A stretch of DNA of 57,563 nucleotides from Candidatus Bathycorpusculum sp. (GTDB taxonomy: Archaea; Thermoproteota; Bathyarchaeia; Bathyarchaeales; Bathycorpusculaceae), in assembly GCA_009781395.1 (NCBI GenBank), contig WQYG01000003.1:1-57563 (forward strand), read 5' to 3'. How positions within the stretch are numbered: the first letter of the stretch is position 1; each line of letters starts with the position of its first letter. This document shows positions 46,842 to 55,174 of the stretch, in pieces. Position numbers and translations under genes: made by a program. The notes under the pieces are model-generated. The model was not told the origin of the DNA. It saw nothing but the letters and a program-made list of their open reading frames with translations, and did no database searches.

Positions 46842-47314
46842 AAATCCAAATACATATAGTCCAGAGATTTCCGCAGAGAGATCCAGTGTTTTTACCCCCT
46901 CATTTTTTGAATATTATCACTTGATCATATATAATTGTGTTAAATTAACCTAACAAATAGTATGACTCTTGGTTAACAGTTTGAGTTAAAACTGTACGGA
47001 ACTAATTTTTCACCCAGCAAAGGTATAAAAATGGATAAACTAAAACACAAACGTCCCAAAATTTTCCCGTAAATAGAGCGTAAATAACGCAACACTTTTT
47101 GTTTAACCAGTCGAGCGAGTTATAGAGGTATAGCGTGGTAAAAAAAATTGTTCAAAAAAAACTAAAGCTACAGCAGACATATAATGAATAAGGGGATTGT
47201 TTTTGTAGTTAGCATGTTGCACTTTAATGACTGTTGAAGATTATTGTGTAAATATGCATATATGTAAGTTTAATTACTACAAATACCACATAGGGTTCAG
47301 GCTGTGTGCTTAGT
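46842..47314. other. Divergent intergenic region
   Basis: About 470 bases between the leftward membrane protein gene and the rightward antiporter fusion. The plus strand carries GCATATATGT at 47256-47265, a TATA box that would start transcription near 47287. No gene or repeat recognised. Confidence 0.45.
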
Positions 47315-49426
47315 ATGAGCAATGAAAAGAATAATTTCAAATGCCATTTAGATAAATTTTACCGTAAGAGCACAATTTTTTCTCTTGTTTCATTAATATT
47401 CATAATACTGCTGTTTGCTTCCCCATTTGTCTCTGCAGTAAATGATGCTAATTTTGATAATGATGACTCACCGCTAGATGGCTTGTCTGGACAAAGCGGT
47501 ATTACGGTGTTTAGTAGAGGAAATTTTTCATTAGAGCCCACGGTGTTTGTTAGAGATGAAACAACACTTAGAGCTGCAATTAATAATGCAGAAGGATCCA
47601 CGGTTATTGCTCTTACAGCAGACATTTCACTTACAGGCTCAGCACTAAACATTCCAGTAAATAAAGACATCACATTATTAAGTGGTGATAGGGAGAACGG
47701 TTTTTGGAAACTTGTCGGTGCAAAGGGTCACAGCACCATTGTTGTTAACAGGGGTTCGCTGATACTTGCAGGCATTATTGTAACTCACAATAGAGGTGAC
47801 ATTGGCAGTGGAGTGATTGTTAACACTGGCGGTACACTTATCATGGTTGATGGTGAAATTTCTGGCAACAGAGCCGACAATGGTGGAGGAGTATACAACA
47901 GTGGCACATTTAATATGTCGGATAATGCCGCCATTTTTGGCAATTTTGCATCTAAAAATGGCGGAGGAGTATACAACACAGGTATTTTTAACATGGAAAA
48001 TGGAGTTATTGGTGGTTCATCCCCTGCACATACCAATACTGCAACCGACAATGGTGGAGGAGTATACAACACCAATGGCAGCATCTTTGCAATGTCGGGC
48101 AGTAGTGTGATTTCAGGCAACATCGCCAAACATGGCGATGATGTGGTTAATGAAGGCACAATATCGGGAGATTCAGTCTCATCGATCATTATTTTTGGTG
48201 TAGTTGCAGGAATTATTGTTGTAGGTTTTGCAGGAGAATATTTGATAAAGAAGGTAGGCATCCCAATTTTTATTTTCCTTATACTTGCAGGCATCATGCT
48301 AGGACCCGTTTTGAACATATTTCCTCGTGAAGGTTTACTTTCCACATTAGGGCTTTTTGCAACCTTAACTTTGTTAATGGTTCTATTCCATGCAGGATTG
48401 GGATTAAGAACTCAATCAGTTCTAGCAATTGGCGGTCGCGTGTTTATTCAAACAATAATCTATACAGTGGTCAGCATTGTTTTAATTGGATCTCTGGGCT
48501 ACTTTGTTTTAAAATGGGACTTTATACAATCATTTATTTTTGCAGGAATCATAGGTGGAGAAATTACAGCTGCAGTAATTGTACCGCTAAGTTGTTCAAT
48601 GAAACTTAAGGAGAAAACAATAGCGTTCCTAACAATGGAGTCAGCAATAAGTTCAGTTTTCTCGGTTGTTATTTTTGCAACGCTGGTTAATATTTACATG
48701 ACAGGAGAAAGCAACATAGTGGATGCTATTTCAGGCATATCAATGCAGTTTTCTGCGGGCATAGTTGTAGGTTTTGGTTTAAGCTTAGCATGGGTTTATG
48801 TACTACATCGACTCCAGAAACACAAATTCACTCACGTCTTAACAATAGGCTTTGTTTTAGCAACTTATAGCTTAACCACGTATCTTGGAGGTAACGGAAT
48901 TCTAGCTGTTTTGGTTTTTGGTATAATTTTTGGAAACTATCACATAGTTAACAAAATTCTAAAAACAAAAATAAACATAGATGGACTACAACAACAACTT
49001 AGCGTGTTCTATGAAGAGATAGCCTTCCTTCTAGAAACATTATTCTTTGTCTCCTTAGGATTAATCTTTGTAATAGACACATCATTTCTACTAGCAGGCA
49101 TAATGTTTACAGCAGTACTGCTAATAACCCGATTTGGAGCAGTAAACATTTCAACCGCAAAAAGCAGTTTATCCCAAGATAAAAAAATCATCACCCTCAT
49201 GTGTGCATTAGGACTAACACCTGCCACACTTGCCATCCTCACAGTTACATATGGAATACCTCTAGCAGACACCTTTGTAAACGTTATAACATACGTGATT
49301 GTCTTCACAAACATAGTTACAGCAGGCTTTTCAATCTATTATTTACGAAAAAAGAAACAAGCCAAAAAAGAACGCAGTGAACAAAGAGAAATAGCAAAAG
49401 AGAACGACGTAATCGTACAGGAATAA
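47315..49426 (+). CDS. Fusion of an adhesin-like repeat domain to a cation/proton antiporter
   Basis: One continuous frame of 703 residues. A signal/anchor helix (~20-42) precedes an extracellular part (~60-280) with TLRAAINNAEGSTVIALTAD and beta-helix repeats of the type NGGGVYN.G.F.MS. From ~290 onward there are about 12 transmembrane segments of the CPA (NhaP/Kef-type) exchanger family, with FLILAGIMLGPVLNIFP, LFATLTLLMVLFHAGLGL, GIIGGEITAAVIVPL and GLTPATLAILTVTYGIPLAD. The tail is highly charged. The exchanger presumably swaps Na+ or K+ for H+. The repeat half is paralogous to the protein at 26469-27326. ATG 47315 is preferred over GTG 47306. Confidence 0.87.
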   Translation: MSNEKNNFKCHLDKFYRKSTIFSLVSLIFIILLFASPFVSAVNDANFDNDDSPLDGLSGQSGITVFSRGNFSLEPTVFVRDETTLRAAINNAEGSTVIALTADISLTGSALNIPVNKDITLLSGDRENGFWKLVGAKGHSTIVVNRGSLILAGIIVTHNRGDIGSGVIVNTGGTLIMVDGEISGNRADNGGGVYNSGTFNMSDNAAIFGNFASKNGGGVYNTGIFNMENGVIGGSSPAHTNTATDNGGGVYNTNGSIFAMSGSSVISGNIAKHGDDVVNEGTISGDSVSSIIIFGVVAGIIVVGFAGEYLIKKVGIPIFIFLILAGIMLGPVLNIFPREGLLSTLGLFATLTLLMVLFHAGLGLRTQSVLAIGGRVFIQTIIYTVVSIVLIGSLGYFVLKWDFIQSFIFAGIIGGEITAAVIVPLSCSMKLKEKTIAFLTMESAISSVFSVVIFATLVNIYMTGESNIVDAISGISMQFSAGIVVGFGLSLAWVYVLHRLQKHKFTHVLTIGFVLATYSLTTYLGGNGILAVLVFGIIFGNYHIVNKILKTKINIDGLQQQLSVFYEEIAFLLETLFFVSLGLIFVIDTSFLLAGIMFTAVLLITRFGAVNISTAKSSLSQDKKIITLMCALGLTPATLAILTVTYGIPLADTFVNVITYVIVFTNIVTAGFSIYYLRKKKQAKKERSEQREIAKENDVIVQE

Positions 49427-49835
49427 TTAGAGTGACGAGTTGCTGAGATTTGAACCCCACACACAGACGGTCTATAAACTAGTTTTTATCAACTACAATA
49501 CACTATACACAAATCACATTATTTTTTCAACGCTACATTGTGGTTAAATTAGTTGAACCCTGAGTTTTTAGACAGCCTCCCCCCCCAAAGACATCTACTA
49601 CCTCTGCAGACGCCTTTAGAGATAAAAAAAAACCATGCATCCATAACCAACATACAAATTCTAAAAAGTGTACTATAGCTTTTTGCAGTAGTTCACAATT
49701 GTATACATTCATAAAAATTTAAGACCACAAACTCAACACAAAAACCAACAAACCAAACTCACCCCACAGCCTTGCATTCGAATTATGGACACATGGAAAA
49801 AGAAGCGATCCTACGGGTATTGTTGAAGACATCTT
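49427..49835. other. Non-coding stretch with a possible decayed tRNA 3' end
   Basis: At 49433-49458 the sequence TGACGAGTTGCTGAGATTTG plus ACCC resembles the complement of a tRNA acceptor/T-arm. It differs from the tRNA-Arg att sequence there mainly by G-to-A and C-to-T changes and one deleted base; the similarity stops after the T-arm. The remainder is AT-rich with a run of eight C at ~49580-49588. No gene recognised. Confidence 0.35.
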
Positions 49836-50220: not shown

Positions 50221-50679
50221 CTAATTAATTGTGAACTCGGCTGAAATTGGATAGTAATCGCCATTAGTCTGGTCTGGATATAAATAAGCAAAATTTTTCA
50301 CGACACGATAATTCCCAGGGCTTAACTCACCAAGCCACCATTCCCAATGTATTTCCTCTTCTGTTATGCTACTTCTTTGTAATATGCGCATTTCCATTGT
50401 CCAACCATAATTTCCACCAAGGTCGGGCACTGGTTCCCAGTTGTTGTTAATCTTTTTTTCTACTTGATAAGGTGAGCCATAAGCGTAGTTATTTGGTACC
50501 ACGTTTTTTATTATTAAGGTAAGTCCCGTATTTGTAAGGGTGTTTTCTTTTATTTCCAAAACTATGCCATCTAAAGGGTTTTCTACAACTTTATTGTCAT
50601 CTAAGACTGTTATACACACTACGCAGGTTGTGATCGTTATGCAAACCATAAGTAATACTGTTAATACTTTTGTATTCAT
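50221..50679 (-). CDS. Secreted or anchored Ig-like (Big_14-type) protein
   Basis: A 152-residue product with an N-terminal hydrophobic helix (VLTVLLMVCITITTCVVCITVL) acting as signal or anchor. A single domain follows with the pattern NTLTNTGLTLIIKN, YAYGSPYQVEKKINNNWEPVP and LSPGNYRVVKNF. This pattern matches a bacterial Ig-like domain family found in small secreted proteins. Its place between two integrase sequences suggests it came with a mobile element. The ATG at 50679 is preferred over a GTG three codons upstream. Function unknown. Confidence 0.7.
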   Translation of the reverse strand: MNTKVLTVLLMVCITITTCVVCITVLDDNKVVENPLDGIVLEIKENTLTNTGLTLIIKNVVPNNYAYGSPYQVEKKINNNWEPVPDLGGNYGWTMEMRILQRSSITEEEIHWEWWLGELSPGNYRVVKNFAYLYPDQTNGDYYPISAEFTIN

Positions 50680-50938
50680 ATTTACCACGCTTCGACAACA
50701 TAGGCGTTATTTCTTGGCACCATTTTTATTACTCTCTAAAAATAAGATATTAAACAGGCATTTATTTCTATGTTTTAGCACAACTATTGGTCGATTAGCA
50801 AAGGAGAGTCGCGTTTAACACCATTACACCAGATTGTATGGTAAACAGAGCATAAAGCAGGCATAAAGGGAGTGCCGTAAATTAAAGTTGACATTACCTC
50901 AACGTAAGCATGTTGTTACTCCATGAGATTTCTAAAAA

Positions 50939-51883
50939 ATGTACACTTTATTTATCGACGAACCCCTAAATGTAAAAATGTTGGCGGGCCCGCTGGGATT
51001 TGAACCCAGGGCCTCCAGCTCCGCAGGCGCAGTTTACACTCCAAACGTAGAAATAAGCCTAAATTGGGCAGATTTGCGATGGGGCTTCAGGCAGTATCTA
51101 GACTCACAAAACTATAGCACCGCCTACATTACAGACATATTACGCTATCTCGACAAACATTTTAAGATAATAAATCATCCGCAAGACATCATAGGCATAT
51201 TTAGCCAAGTTAAAAAAGGCAGACGTAGTCTTTGGCTTGGCTTTCGCGTACTTTTTAATTATTTAGCCGCTCTAGGATACGACGACTTGATAATTAGCAT
51301 ACTTAGAAAATCGTTACCAAAAGCCAACTGTTTTGGTGTAGACCTAAAAGTCCCAGAAGAGCCAGAAATCATACGCTCGCTAAATGGAATCAAAAATGCT
51401 ACACCAAAATATTTAGCACTGTATAACCTTCTTACTGATTCAGGCTTACGCCTAGTTGAAGCCATTAAAGTGATAACCGAATTTAACCCCGACAAAGTGG
51501 AGCATATTAACGGGTTTTGTCGTGTTGAAGTAGGCGCGTTTAGAGGTAATAAGCAAGCTTTCTATGGATACTTTACAGAATACACTTTTGAACTGTTGTG
51601 TCAAGTGTCGGATAATACGTTTAGAGCTGCAACCGCCGCACATCGCTGCAGAAAACATAAAGCGATAGCACCTAAATATCTTCGTAAGTTTGCGTTTGAT
51701 AAGATGGTTGAACTTGAAGTGCCTGAAAGCGTGGCTGACTTTATTGAGGGTCGCGTACCTAAACGTATTGGCGCGAAACATTATATGGTGCTTCGGCGTC
51801 AAGCGGACAAGTTTTATGGTAAATATGCGGAATACCTTAAAACGTTACGTGTTAAGGTGCCAAAAAATGTGCCAGATAATTGA
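50939..51883 (+). CDS. SSV-type integrase, C-terminal part (IntC), partitioned by integration
   Basis: The element-derived part is 51029-51883 (284 residues); residues 1-15 of the open frame come from the left flank and 16-30 from the att site. It begins with a SAM-like DNA-binding region (WGFRQYLDSQNYSTAYITDIL) and continues into the tyrosine recombinase catalytic domain. Visible are the first Arg in LTDSGLRLVEA, a Lys in FRGNKQAFYG, the second-box Arg in APKYLRKF, and the closing GAKHYMVLRRQADKFYGKYA with the likely Tyr nucleophile. In the integrated state it has lost its own start. Joined to 54873-55142 it forms the full enzyme. Confidence 0.9.
   Translation: MYTLFIDEPLNVKMLAGPLGFEPRASSSAGAVYTPNVEISLNWADLRWGFRQYLDSQNYSTAYITDILRYLDKHFKIINHPQDIIGIFSQVKKGRRSLWLGFRVLFNYLAALGYDDLIISILRKSLPKANCFGVDLKVPEEPEIIRSLNGIKNATPKYLALYNLLTDSGLRLVEAIKVITEFNPDKVEHINGFCRVEVGAFRGNKQAFYGYFTEYTFELLCQVSDNTFRAATAAHRCRKHKAIAPKYLRKFAFDKMVELEVPESVADFIEGRVPKRIGAKHYMVLRRQADKFYGKYAEYLKTLRVKVPKNVPDN
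50982..51028. other. attL: 47-bp copy of the tRNA-Arg 3' half
   Basis: Identical to 55096-55142, covering the complement of CCA, acceptor 3' strand, T-arm, variable loop and most of the anticodon arm. The identity ends at 51028, where the next base differs (G here, T in the tRNA gene). Confidence 0.92.
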
Positions 51884-52053
51884 GTGGGGCTACCTGAACG
51901 TTATAAAAGTCCGTTTTAACCATCACATGTTCACAAGGTAAAAAGCGTATACGTGCTAACGTACATACGTGCCAATGCGCGACGGATTCACGGTTCAAGA
52001 TGCGCTGTTCCGTCAGCCCCGAAGCACCTTACACTCTACATTAACGTTGCTTG

Positions 52054-52944
52054 TCACTTCACAATTTTTATCGGCGCCAACTTGTCTATTTCTTGTTGCA
52101 CTACACTTAAAGCCTCATAGAATTGTCTGCCTGAGATAGAGTTCATAAAATCTTCAAGCGGGGCACTCAAAAATGGGTCATCCGTTGGTATGTCATAACC
52201 GCGTCTGCCTATGTACTTACCAACCTCTTCATAAGACATAGCTCCACATAGCATAACATATTCGCCACCTATATGCCACAATGCTACGACATAGTCAGGC
52301 TTGTTATTTTTGAACTGCGCTTTATTGACGTTCACTCTATAACCAATAAATTCTCCTGTTCGCTTGTCGCAATATTCTGTAACACTTTTCACTTCAACCG
52401 TGCCAAAGTTGGGTATGTCAAAATCTCTCGCTTGAACAAACGGAGCTGTTTTTGTTGTTCTCCAATCGCGTAGTGGTTCAGGGTAGTTATGAGGTAATGC
52501 CATGTTCTGCAAAATTAAATCAAACGTTTTCTCAGCTATTAAGCCATCTCTAACTTGTTTCAGCTTAGCAATCCGTTTTTTAGAACCAAGTGTCTTAAGC
52601 TCTGCATCGTCTCTCTCGTAGCGTGTCATGAAAATTTCGACAGAAAGTTCTATTGCCATGACTTGTGGTGATATAAAGCCGTACTTTTCAAGTATGTTTG
52701 TGTGTTGTGGGTAATTGTGTTCAAGTGTTTTGCTTTCAGTTTTGTCAGGGTTTAATGTGAAGAAAATTTGGTTTGCATCGTATTGAACAGACTTTTTCTT
52801 CGAAGCTAAGTGTTTTTTAACCTCAGTAATGTCGGCTGGTGTAGCAAGTTCTAGTCCTCTAAGTATACATGGACTTGCACTAAGTGACCGCATTGATATG
52901 CTATATGGGCATTTTCTTAAAAAGGGTTTATTCATGTTTATCAT
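52054..52944 (-). CDS. PD-(D/E)XK-like protein of the integrated element
   Basis: A 296-residue protein of unknown family. Residues ~170-190 read ARDFDIPNFGTVEVKSVTEY, an Asp followed after a strand by E-V-K, which is the PD-(D/E)XK nuclease core. Helical charged segments (RYERDDAELKTLGSKKRIAK) precede it, with ADYVVAL-like strands after it (KPDYVVALWHIGGEYVMLCG). A restriction-like or Holliday-junction/repair nuclease, or an element defence/replication function, is plausible but unproven. ATGs at 52944, 52935 and 52893 compete; the TATA spacing favours 52944. Confidence 0.65.
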   Translation of the reverse strand: MINMNKPFLRKCPYSISMRSLSASPCILRGLELATPADITEVKKHLASKKKSVQYDANQIFFTLNPDKTESKTLEHNYPQHTNILEKYGFISPQVMAIELSVEIFMTRYERDDAELKTLGSKKRIAKLKQVRDGLIAEKTFDLILQNMALPHNYPEPLRDWRTTKTAPFVQARDFDIPNFGTVEVKSVTEYCDKRTGEFIGYRVNVNKAQFKNNKPDYVVALWHIGGEYVMLCGAMSYEEVGKYIGRRGYDIPTDDPFLSAPLEDFMNSISGRQFYEALSVVQQEIDKLAPIKIVK

Positions 52945-52969
52945 CTCTGTTTCTTAAAAATTGTTTTTA

Positions 52970-52977
52970 TTTTTATA
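52970..52977 (-). promoter_or_regulatory. TATA box of the PD-(D/E)XK-like gene
   Basis: TATAAAAA on the minus strand lies about 30 bases from the ATG at 52944, giving an almost leaderless transcript. Confidence 0.45.
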
Positions 52978-53892
52978 TTGTATTTAATATGGTTATCTTC
53001 ATAAAATTTTATATTTCTAATCATATGTATCAAACTGTATTTTTATATTAAAATAGTGAACGTAAAGTTCTCGTACACTCACGCACTAAACCAAGCTAAG
53101 CAAATACTGCAACACCAGAAAAACTGTAGTCAAACGTTACATGTCATCAAACAAACGCGCTATCACACATCAACTGGTCACTGCTTCAACACAATATCAT
53201 CCAAAACCGTTCAATAAACGCAAACAGCCCAAACAATATTTGTCAGAAAAAACTTTACTACACCGCTCAACCGTCTCAAGTTGAAGAGATTTACGATGAA
53301 CTTTACATCCAACAGCAAACATATCAAACCTATTATATAGACTTATCTCATCTAATAGATTTACGAAAAACATTACTTTCAACTATAGAAAGCGCCAGTC
53401 GGTGATGTAAACTTGTCTCATCCATTGGATTTGCGATAGACTTTACGTTCAACCGTAAACATATCAACGGATAATATAGGGTTATCTTTTCACTGTGAAA
53501 CATGAACATGCGAACGTTACGTTCGAATCCGCCTATACATTAAACGCGACAGGTCGCGCGGTCACTGCGTACGTTGTATCCACACTTTACGTTGTGTTTG
53601 ATATGTGTGAGCTTATTAAGGTTTAAGGTATGAATTTTTCCAGCCGTACTAACGTCGCGTATTAAAAGCTTTGTTGATTGCTCAACCGCCTTTGACAGTT
53701 CCAAACTGTCGTCGCGTCCACAATATGATTCAGCCGCCCAAAACTTTTTAGCAACTTATCCGTTGACGCCCTGCAGAATTTAAAGCCGCGCACGCGCACA
53801 TAAACCTAACACCTGCGAAACATGGTTCGACGTGCAAGAAAAACTTTATAACAGTAAAGTGTATTAACAGTTAATATATAGAAGCGGTCAAA
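52978..53892. other. Non-coding region of the element, candidate replication/control region
   Basis: About 900 bases without a believable gene. It contains the 70-bp repeats (53288-53497), a near-palindrome CGAACGTTACGTTCG (53511-53525), and many ACGT/GTTCG motifs. A CTTTATAAC element near 53844-53852 could promote the next rightward gene. In a 4-kb element without a recognised Rep gene this is the likeliest place for an origin. That is inference. Confidence 0.45.
53288..53497. repeat. Three degenerate direct repeats with an exact 70-bp period
   Basis: Units begin at 53288, 53358 and 53428 with GATTTACGATGAACTTTAC, GATTTACGAAAAACATTAC and GATTTGCGATAGACTTTAC. Units 1 and 3 stay alike for ~58 bases (CAACxGxAAACATATCAA, then TATATAG and TTATCT). 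Units 1 and 2 also share CTTATCTCATC/CTTGTCTCATC at their ends. 70 is not a multiple of three, so they are not protein repeats. Spacers are not unique, so this is not CRISPR. Confidence 0.8.
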
Positions 53893-54297
53893 GTGCAAAA
53901 TAAAGCCATTATACTTGTAACCGTTGCAGTTTTAGCGCTCGGCGCGGGCATATTCATAGTGCAAACAGGAATTCAAAACTTCACAACACCAGAACAACCG
54001 CAATACACGCCTGAAACAACAAACCCGCCATACGCACCGACCGCACCGCCATTTGAAGCTCCGATTACATACACGTATGAATATAAAATAGGAAAATTAG
54101 ATTACGTTTCAACATTATGGGCAAAAATAGGCGACGAAAATATAAGGCTTTATGTTGACAATTATAATTTATATAAAGACTGCAATCAATTAGACGGGAA
54201 AAATGTTGTATTAACAATAACACACGCAAGTCAAGTACAACCAGACGGAATAATTCGCACATGGATATCAAGCGTTACACTCACACCAGCATCATAA
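53893..54297 (+). CDS. Small membrane-anchored protein of the element
   Basis: Not recognised. The 134-residue product has one N-terminal transmembrane helix (IILVTVAVLALGAGIFIVQ), a Pro/Thr-rich linker (~32-57) and a compact beta-rich C-terminal domain. That domain has YEYKIGKLDYVSTLWAKIGD and KNVVLTITHASQVQPDG segments, possibly OB-like. The start is GTG. Topology suggests an exposed domain on the cell surface or virion/vesicle. The stop codon is the first base of the downstream inverted repeat. Confidence 0.6.
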   Translation: MQNKAIILVTVAVLALGAGIFIVQTGIQNFTTPEQPQYTPETTNPPYAPTAPPFEAPITYTYEYKIGKLDYVSTLWAKIGDENIRLYVDNYNLYKDCNQLDGKNVVLTITHASQVQPDGIIRTWISSVTLTPAS

Positions 54298-54488
54298 ATC
54301 TAATAGAAAAGTGAACATATATGTTCACTCAGTAAAGAGTACCCACCATTTTTTAACACACACAAAACACGCAGAACCGATAAGTTTATATAGGAGAAGT
54401 TGTCAAGGTTTTATATAGGATATATAAGTTCATAATTACACGGTAGTCTTTACACAGTGAACATATATGTTCACTTTTCTATTAGATT
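54297..54488. repeat. 33-bp perfect inverted repeat containing an 18-bp palindrome
   Basis: 54297-54329 is the exact reverse complement of 54456-54488. Each arm holds the palindrome GTGAACATATATGTTCAC (54311-54328, 54457-54474). Similarity continues inward with mismatches (GTAAAGAGTACC versus GTAAAGACTACC). The 126-bp centre has TTTATATAGGA twice, 25 bp apart (54385-54395, 54410-54420), which look like promoter elements. It could be paired operators around a promoter, a hairpin RNA, an origin, or a miniature transposable element. Confidence 0.85.
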
Positions 54489-54872
54489 AGTTAAGTTTTT
54501 AGTTAAACACACGACCTAGATGTTCACGGAGCCACCCATAAAAACTTCTACCGACTGCACACATTCAAAAAATGTATACGGGTACCCAACACCACCTTTA
54601 AGACAACACCCAACACCTTCTAAGCGTCAGGATAGTCATAACTTTACAATGCTGCTTAACGGTGCCAAATTTTGCTCAGACATTCGAATGGACCAACCAC
54701 GTGATAAGTAAAAACGGATTTAACCATCCGTCTGCACAATTACACAATTTTGCGACCGTGCGAACACATGACCTAAACGTTCACATAGATGCACCGTTCA
54801 CTTTTACCAAACTTTGAACCGTGATAGGAGCGGTTAAGTATGTGCGTACATCTTATTTTTTGGTGAAATGTC
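54489..54872. other. Non-coding region with GTTCAC motifs
   Basis: About 380 bases. Two related 20-base motifs occur: CACACGACCTAGATGTTCAC (54508-54527) and CACATGACCTAAACGTTCAC (54765-54784). Another GTTCAC lies at 54796-54801. They share the half-site of the palindromes upstream, which suggests one binding protein. The 63-codon frame at 54520-54711 is not convincing. The integrase N-terminal part starts downstream. Confidence 0.45.
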
Positions 54873-55163
54873 ATGTTAAGTAAAGCTGAAATAGAATTTT
54901 TGAAGAACCCTGAAAAATTCGATGCTAATTATAGTCGTGTGTTGCGTCATCGCATTAAAGTTAAAAGTGTTAAATGTGTGGAAGGGGCAACTTTGCTTTG
55001 GGGCAATAGGCCAACCATTACGGAAAACTGTAACGCCGTTACAAAATTCAGTAACGCCAATCCAAGCTCAAATCAAGCTTTAAATGCAAAAATAGTGGCG
55101 GGCCCGCTGGGATTTGAACCCAGGGCCTCCAGCTCCGCAGGCTGGTGTCATAATCCGTGCTAG
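54873..55163 (+). CDS. SSV-type integrase, N-terminal part (IntN), partitioned by integration
   Basis: The ATG at 54873 opens MLSKAEIEFLKNPEKFDANY and SRVLRHRIKVK, a typical start for archaeal tyrosine integrases. Residues ~76-90 (AGPLGFEPRASSSAG) are the att sequence read in frame, so codon 90 ends exactly at 55142. After that the frame runs six codons into the host tRNA sequence and stops. Joined to 51029 the frame continues as AVYTPNVEISLNWAD, which restores a 374-residue integrase after excision. Confidence 0.88.
   Translation: MLSKAEIEFLKNPEKFDANYSRVLRHRIKVKSVKCVEGATLLWGNRPTITENCNAVTKFSNANPSSNQALNAKIVAGPLGFEPRASSSAGWCHNPC
55096..55142. other. attR: 47-bp att copy inside the tRNA-Arg gene
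   Basis: Identical to 50982-51028. It covers the tRNA 3' end through the anticodon loop, so the tRNA gene stays intact after integration. Confidence 0.92.
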
Positions 55164-55174
55164 ACGACAGGCCC
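55096..55174 (-). tRNA. tRNA-Arg (GCG)
   Basis: On the minus strand the acceptor strand GGGCCTG pairs with CGGGCCC, followed by discriminator G and an encoded CCA (55096-55098). The D-arm is GTC...GAC, the anticodon arm CCAGC-CTGCGGA-GCTGG (anticodon GCG at 55136-55138), the variable loop AGGCC, and the T-arm CTGGG-TTCAAAT-CCCAG. No intron. A GTTTATTTA element at 55204-55212 is a fitting TATA box. Its 3' half is the integration target. Confidence 0.92.

Follow-up and report, generated by a model that had tools for sequence, protein, structure and literature searches.

A 4.1-kb element with a split SSV-type integrase in Candidatus Bathycorpusculum and its place in a family of very small integrative elements

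What kind of genetic element occupies little more than 4 kb between two copies of half a tRNA gene and carries its own integrase gene cut in two? The question is raised by positions 50982-55142 of contig WQYG01000003.1 of the uncultured archaeon Candidatus Bathycorpusculum sp. (class Bathyarchaeia; assembly GCA_009781395.1; the window analysed here is the whole stretch of 57,563 nt). The locus is very probably a 4,114-bp integrative element with an SSV-type (type I, suicidal) integrase, a minimal plasmid-like or satellite-like member of a family of 3-6 kb. Two exact 47-bp repeats, embedded in a 62-nt block of 95% identity, form its borders, as an earlier note made from the letters alone had claimed. 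The repeat spans the 3' end of a tRNA-Arg to its anticodon loop, and its 43-bp attachment (att) core occurs twice in the window and not once in 100 shuffles with three mismatches allowed. A single intact tRNA-Arg (gcg) overlaps the right copy on the minus strand (ARAGORN; Rfam RF00005, E 6e-11). The 3' half of tRNA-Arg(GCG) is the integration target, the insertion having left the tRNA gene whole, and the predicted excised circle runs from 51029 to 55142.

The integrase gene ties these borders to a known mode of integration. The right-hand fragment, int(N), comprises exactly 90 codons (54873-55142), and joining it to int(C) at 51029-51883 gives an uninterrupted in-frame protein of 374 residues; the left fragment likewise has an open frame of 314 aa, which starts at an ATG at 50939 and runs across the att copy. 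This computed frame bears out the earlier proposal that the integrase frame crosses the att site and that excision would rejoin it at codon 90 without frame loss. The joined protein matches PF16795 (Phage_integr_3; 3.8e-33) and PHROG 5127 (5e-47), the latter the only match to the element in the PHROGs scan. Its nearest match among phage records is SSV1 Int, with 33% identity over 76%; profile searches retrieve the SSV1 Int catalytic-domain structures 3uxu, 3vcf and 4dks (E about 1e-23), and the catalytic residues R231, K306-x-x-R309 and H341-Y342 line up with those of SSV1 Int; a comparison with SSV integrases had been suggested in the earlier note. In the circular form attP lies within int codons 75-90, a position comparable to that of the integration site in SSV1. 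A review of archaeal tyrosine recombinases describes such an integrase as suicidal (type I) and links this type to PF16795 (PMC8371274). Together with empty target sites in related genomes and with at least three further complete elements split in this way, these features uphold the SSV mode first suggested for the locus; judged by sequence, we regard its assignment as a type I (SSV-type) integrated element as virtually certain.

The empty sites are found in three congeners (G021, a Ca. Bathycorpusculum metagenome-assembled genome; G002; and G010), in which lysS and tRNA-Arg(gcg) are followed directly by the Na/H exchanger region; the search for such sites had been proposed as a check. Past the tRNA, the congener sequence matches the window at or below about 49.46 kb, with 74-81% identity over 1.2 kb, and therefore the whole stretch of ~49.46-55.10 kb has been inserted here. 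It is made up of two layers: the young element and, on its left, an older remnant that the earlier note had not mentioned. This mobile-element debris consists of part of an older int(C), a gene for a Big_14 protein and a decayed tRNA 3' end. The Big_14 flank also follows another tRNA-Arg (CCG) of the same genome, at 84% DNA identity. Two findings led to the rejection of an assembly artefact: what lies to the left is the sequence that naturally follows a tRNA-Arg, and the site is empty in sister species. Further to the left, a plus-strand open reading frame (ORF) of 706 aa (47306-49426) combines a secreted repeat region with a Na+/H+ exchanger domain (PF00999, 1e-27), an odd fusion; we take its repeat region to be of the GGGVYN type, resembling chlamydial Pmp beta-helix repeats.

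An integrase search across the class Bathyarchaeia, followed by reading of the loci, placed the element in a family. Its members range from 3.3 to 6.2 kb and occupy different tRNA genes within the genus Ca. Bathycorpusculum. They share a recurring plan: int(C), one or two genes that mostly lie on the opposite strand, non-coding DNA, in three elements the small membrane-anchored protein, and int(N) over an intact tRNA. The integrase is split in every member, a single PD-(D/E)XK-like gene is usual, and relatives of int(N) occur in at least seven other loci. The same genome holds a second element at tRNA-Glu(ctc), on contigs C88 and C34 with an exact 98-bp end in common and 4,233 bp between the att cores. 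Congeners carry others at tRNA-Gly (G022:C335; 3.3 kb, with int and one nuclease-like gene only), at tRNA-Ser (G003:C145; 6.2 kb) and at tRNA-Val (G003:C96, or L044; 5.5 kb, with an int(C) of a different type); a further one lies at tRNA-Thr (L063, JALHSY010000151.1; a split-integrase element of about 4.7 kb with a PolB fusion). The integrase frames rejoin in those family elements tested, and ratios of nonsynonymous to synonymous substitution (dN/dS) of 0.15-0.42 show purifying selection on int(N), int(C) and the membrane protein; the family has therefore been functional. Its members look plasmid-like or satellite-like. The earlier description of the element as unusually small needs qualifying: it is no isolated oddity, given the 3.3-6.2-kb family and thaumarchaeal cryptic integrated elements as small as 2.6 kb (PMC6563490). 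The element represents a known kind in a new and very small form, and what sets it apart is the degree of reduction together with an exchangeable nuclease slot.

Two observations concern the structure of relatives. In L044 and in L053 (G020:C91), an int(N) of this family is joined by an int(C) of another type and then by a 43-residue remnant of the family int(C); by their sequences, these mosaic integrases are traces of int(N)/int(C) exchange. In the tRNA-Glu element, the assembly breaks of C88 and C34 (L045, L046), with their exact 98-bp overlap, fall inside the inverted-repeat region; they may reflect a repeat, mixed forms, or a segment between the inverted-repeat arms that can invert.

With SSV1 and the fuselloviruses, besides PF16795 and the R...KxxR...Y residues, the element shares an att site inside int, the int(N)/int(C) split and a tRNA 3'-half target; unlike them, it has no capsid, DnaA-like or other virus gene, measures 4.1 kb rather than about 15 kb, and resides in a bathyarchaeial host. 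The pTN3 and pT26-2 plasmid families likewise combine a suicidal integrase with tRNA genes, and some of their integrated copies have lost Rep genes (PMC8371274, PMC6972569), whereas the core gene modules of those families are not found here. An integrase, att repeats and no virus or conjugation signature gene make it a cryptic integrated element in the sense of PMC6563490. Thaumarchaeota carry such elements, with an integrase, a few genes of no assigned function and often no recognisable replication gene; the smallest measures 2.6 kb, and NitEve-E3 has an SSV1-like split integrase (PMC6563490). Most thaumarchaeal att sites are, however, shorter than 26 bp, the split integrase is reported in one element only, and the likeness to the bathyarchaeial element is one of plan, with no shared genes shown (PMC6563490). 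In small integrated elements, Makarova et al. noted PD-DEXK nucleases linked with a viral-type primase, and they proposed that such elements are satellites (PMC4158269). By analogy, such putative satellites with an arCOG07809 primase and an arCOG09441 PD-DEXK nuclease may resemble the present element in small size, SSV-like features and the nuclease, whereas their primase/ATPase protein is missing from the 4.1-kb element (PMC4158269).

The single gene between int(C) and the non-coding region encodes the 296-aa protein that had been described as PD-(D/E)XK-like, a description consistent with its predicted structure. Homologues share an invariant D and K, the K mostly preceded by D/E-x. A model of residues 88-296, built from eight sequences (pLDDT 82.5), has the strand and helix order expected of a PD-(D/E)XK core, with the motif at D87 and E97-V-K99 of the modelled stretch, D87 and K99 being invariant in the alignment. 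A first model from a four-row alignment (pLDDT 49.5) was discarded, and the fold search from it was meaningless. Matches of the retained model in a viral fold library (E 2e-6) are to unnamed predicted viral proteins with no assigned function, and in a single-sequence search neither viral contigs nor phage records nor public genome contigs yielded close relatives of the nuclease.

The company kept by the homologues is more telling. One forms the C-terminal part of a fusion with a PriS-PriX primase, in an element that also encodes an MCM-like protein (L078/L135), one lies between int(C) and PolB (L079/L136), and one is near Hjc and an AAA/helix-turn-helix protein, with an int(C)-like ORF alongside (L173). 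The tRNA-Glu element has a different nuclease-like cargo (270 aa, C88), and the L063 PolB fusion has an N-terminus homologous to it (3e-23). Because homologues are fused to or stand beside primase, MCM-like and PolB genes, the sequences make a role in replication more likely than one in restriction, and we lean slightly towards predicting that the 296-aa protein is a replication-linked nuclease. The earlier statement that the element lacks capsid and replication genes accordingly needs dividing: no capsid gene was found, and the replication part is only partly right, because the PD-(D/E)XK-like gene is probably replication-associated.

L135 386-8340 (G081:C17) is a 7.9-kb element between tRNA-Gln att copies, with the MCM-like protein and the PriS-PriX-nuclease fusion. 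The 994-aa protein at L063 4830-7814 consists of a nuclease-like N-terminus, PolB (PF03175) and a C-terminal helix-turn-helix. The closest relatives of the window nuclease occur in larger mobile contigs with HerA-like ATPases (L050, G022:C337; L049, G014:C32), which are possible helpers.

The remaining parts of the element (Table 1) are one small gene and non-coding DNA. The 134-aa ORF, with homologues in family elements, agrees with the small membrane-anchored protein noticed earlier, and has a single N-terminal helix followed by a soluble domain. The non-coding repeats named in the earlier note were also recovered, as three 40-nt direct copies and a pair of 47-nt inverted arms. The inverted repeat, located behind the membrane gene, has arms that are 94% complementary and 98 nt apart, with a folding z of -13; the tRNA-Glu element has a 38-nt inverted repeat of different sequence in the same place, and two other elements have none. 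In an Rfam scan only the tRNA scored above threshold, a weak MIR869 match on the inverted repeat falling far below the cut-off, and a tandem repeat search gave nothing of note. The int leader is a candidate promoter or att arm region. Inside int(N), paired GTTAC-N8-GTAAC palindromes are kept in several elements, including one with an integrase only 45% identical; they may be candidate arm-type Int sites within coding sequence, or an operator, and protein constraint could also account for their conservation.

Table 1. Positions of the element's parts and of the older remnant to its left, in window coordinates
Feature	Position	Strand	Basis or remark
attL, displaced 47-bp tRNA-Arg 3'-half copy	50982..51028	-	identical to 55096-55142
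int(C), catalytic part, 284 codons + stop	51029..51883	+	PF16795 3.8e-33; dN/dS 0.15 vs L047
PD-(D/E)XK-like protein, 296 aa, motif D174...E184-V-K186	52054..52944	-	homologue alignment, model
Degenerate 40-nt direct repeat, three copies spaced 70 nt apart, within a 950-nt non-coding stretch	53288..53467	+	repeat search, family D2
Small membrane-anchored protein, 134 aa	53893..54297	+	family common to three elements; dN/dS about 0.35
Inverted repeat, left arm, 47 nt, with palindrome AGTGAACATATATGTTCACT	54297..54343	+	repeat search, fold z
Inverted repeat, right arm	54442..54488	+	repeat search, fold z
Non-coding int leader	54535..54872	+	about 80% identity with relatives at other tRNAs
int(N), first 90 codons, antisense overlap with tRNA	54873..55142	+	dN/dS 0.33-0.42 vs three relatives
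Pair of GTTAC-N8-GTAAC palindromes inside int(N), 21 bp apart	55017..55055	+	first half-site degenerate here
attR, 47-bp copy within the intact tRNA-Arg	55096..55142	-	repeat and tRNA search
Intact tRNA-Arg (gcg), integration target	55096..55174	-	ARAGORN; RF00005
Decayed tRNA 3'-end relic, oldest att site	49432..49457	-	alignment with empty site L138
Remnant of older int(C), 62% protein identity	49797..50096	+	integrase comparison
Big_14 (Ig-like) anchored protein	50221..50688	-	domain search

In the reading that we prefer, recombination between attP inside int and the 3' half of tRNA-Arg(GCG) inserts the element and keeps the tRNA whole, at the same time cutting int into int(N) on the right, overlapping the tRNA, and int(C) on the left. 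The inserted element would then be unable to excise alone and would move only with a related intact integrase from another element; we consider such dependence on other elements reasonably probable. Less certainly, the PD-(D/E)XK-like protein may be the sole retained part of a replication module, making site-specific or structure-specific cuts at the element's origin; the host or larger relatives would provide polymerase, primase and helicase, and the non-coding repeats and the inverted repeat could serve as origin or operator sequences. Extending this to the whole bathyarchaeial family of 3-6 kb, we tentatively suggest that its members might be satellites of larger replicons, reduced to an origin, an exchangeable nuclease that marks it for a helper primase/MCM or PolB, and a split integrase completed in trans, so that replication and excision would both be borrowed.

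Other accounts must be weighed against this reading, and some observations speak against it directly. No rolling-circle Rep, PrimPol, MCM, PolB or similar protein was found among the element's genes in Pfam, PHROGs and NCBIfam scans, and no known origin or Rep protein was recognised; the best match of the nuclease model in a PDB fold search is not significant (E 0.32), with HincII, PA-N and DpnI in its weak tail; no contig of the same genome joins the two int halves, and no free circle was found. (G020:C91, in which int(N) lies beside int(C), was rejected as a free circle, its int(N) being broken and a terminal overlap absent.) The last point against the preferred reading is that in two relatives the nuclease slot holds known defence families: a Mrr-type type IV restriction enzyme in L047 (PF04471 2.4e-30; PADLOC mREase_IV 7e-59), and in L044 a CAP12-type TIR protein together with another PD-like protein. 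The locus might thus be a mobile defence mini-island, surviving because its nuclease-like gene, together with the membrane protein, shields the host or keeps other elements out; the position next to int(C) would then be a hotspot for cargo like those of P4-like satellites. It would suit such an island that slot genes are unrelated between relatives, that the nuclease-like genes are solitary and that type IV enzymes need no methyltransferase. The window protein and its closest relatives, however, match no PADLOC, NCBIfam or Pfam defence family, or for the window protein any family of these three collections, and the replication genes joined to its homologues point elsewhere; we regard a defence island as possible yet rather doubtful.

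Alternatively, the element might be packaged by a helper virus, as a satellite or as a reduced spindle-shaped virus. This would account for the small size, for the integrase being nearest to fuselloviruses among phage records and for nuclease relatives in the HerA-bearing contigs L049 and L050; small integrated elements with PD-DEXK nucleases have moreover been proposed as satellite viruses (PMC4158269). Such an origin is unlikely here: int is the only fusellovirus gene, no ORF in 50982-55142 encodes a VP1/VP3-type capsid protein with two hydrophobic helices, the membrane protein having one N-terminal helix and a soluble domain instead, and there is no match in viral contigs or phage records. 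Least probable of all is a decaying relic, already immobile. The integrase is split, and the adjoining older relic has a broken int(C) and a decayed att site. Against this, the two att copies of the young element do not differ, the reading frames of both parts of int, of the nuclease gene and of the membrane gene are uninterrupted, and selection ratios stay under 0.45.

The preferred reading, a minimal integrative element that would move only with outside help, bears on the question posed by all suicidal integrases, namely how an element persists when its insertion destroys the gene needed for leaving. Here, very small related elements, with two in one genome, empty sites in sisters and old and new insertions stacked at one tRNA, offer a compact system for studying help in trans and the exchange of int(N) and int(C). 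They also suggest that archaeal mobile elements carry a so far undescribed family of PD-(D/E)XK-like proteins associated with primase, MCM-like and PolB genes. The genus harbours a previously unnoticed series of very small split-integrase elements, which have seemingly shed nearly everything but the integrase and one nuclease-like gene.

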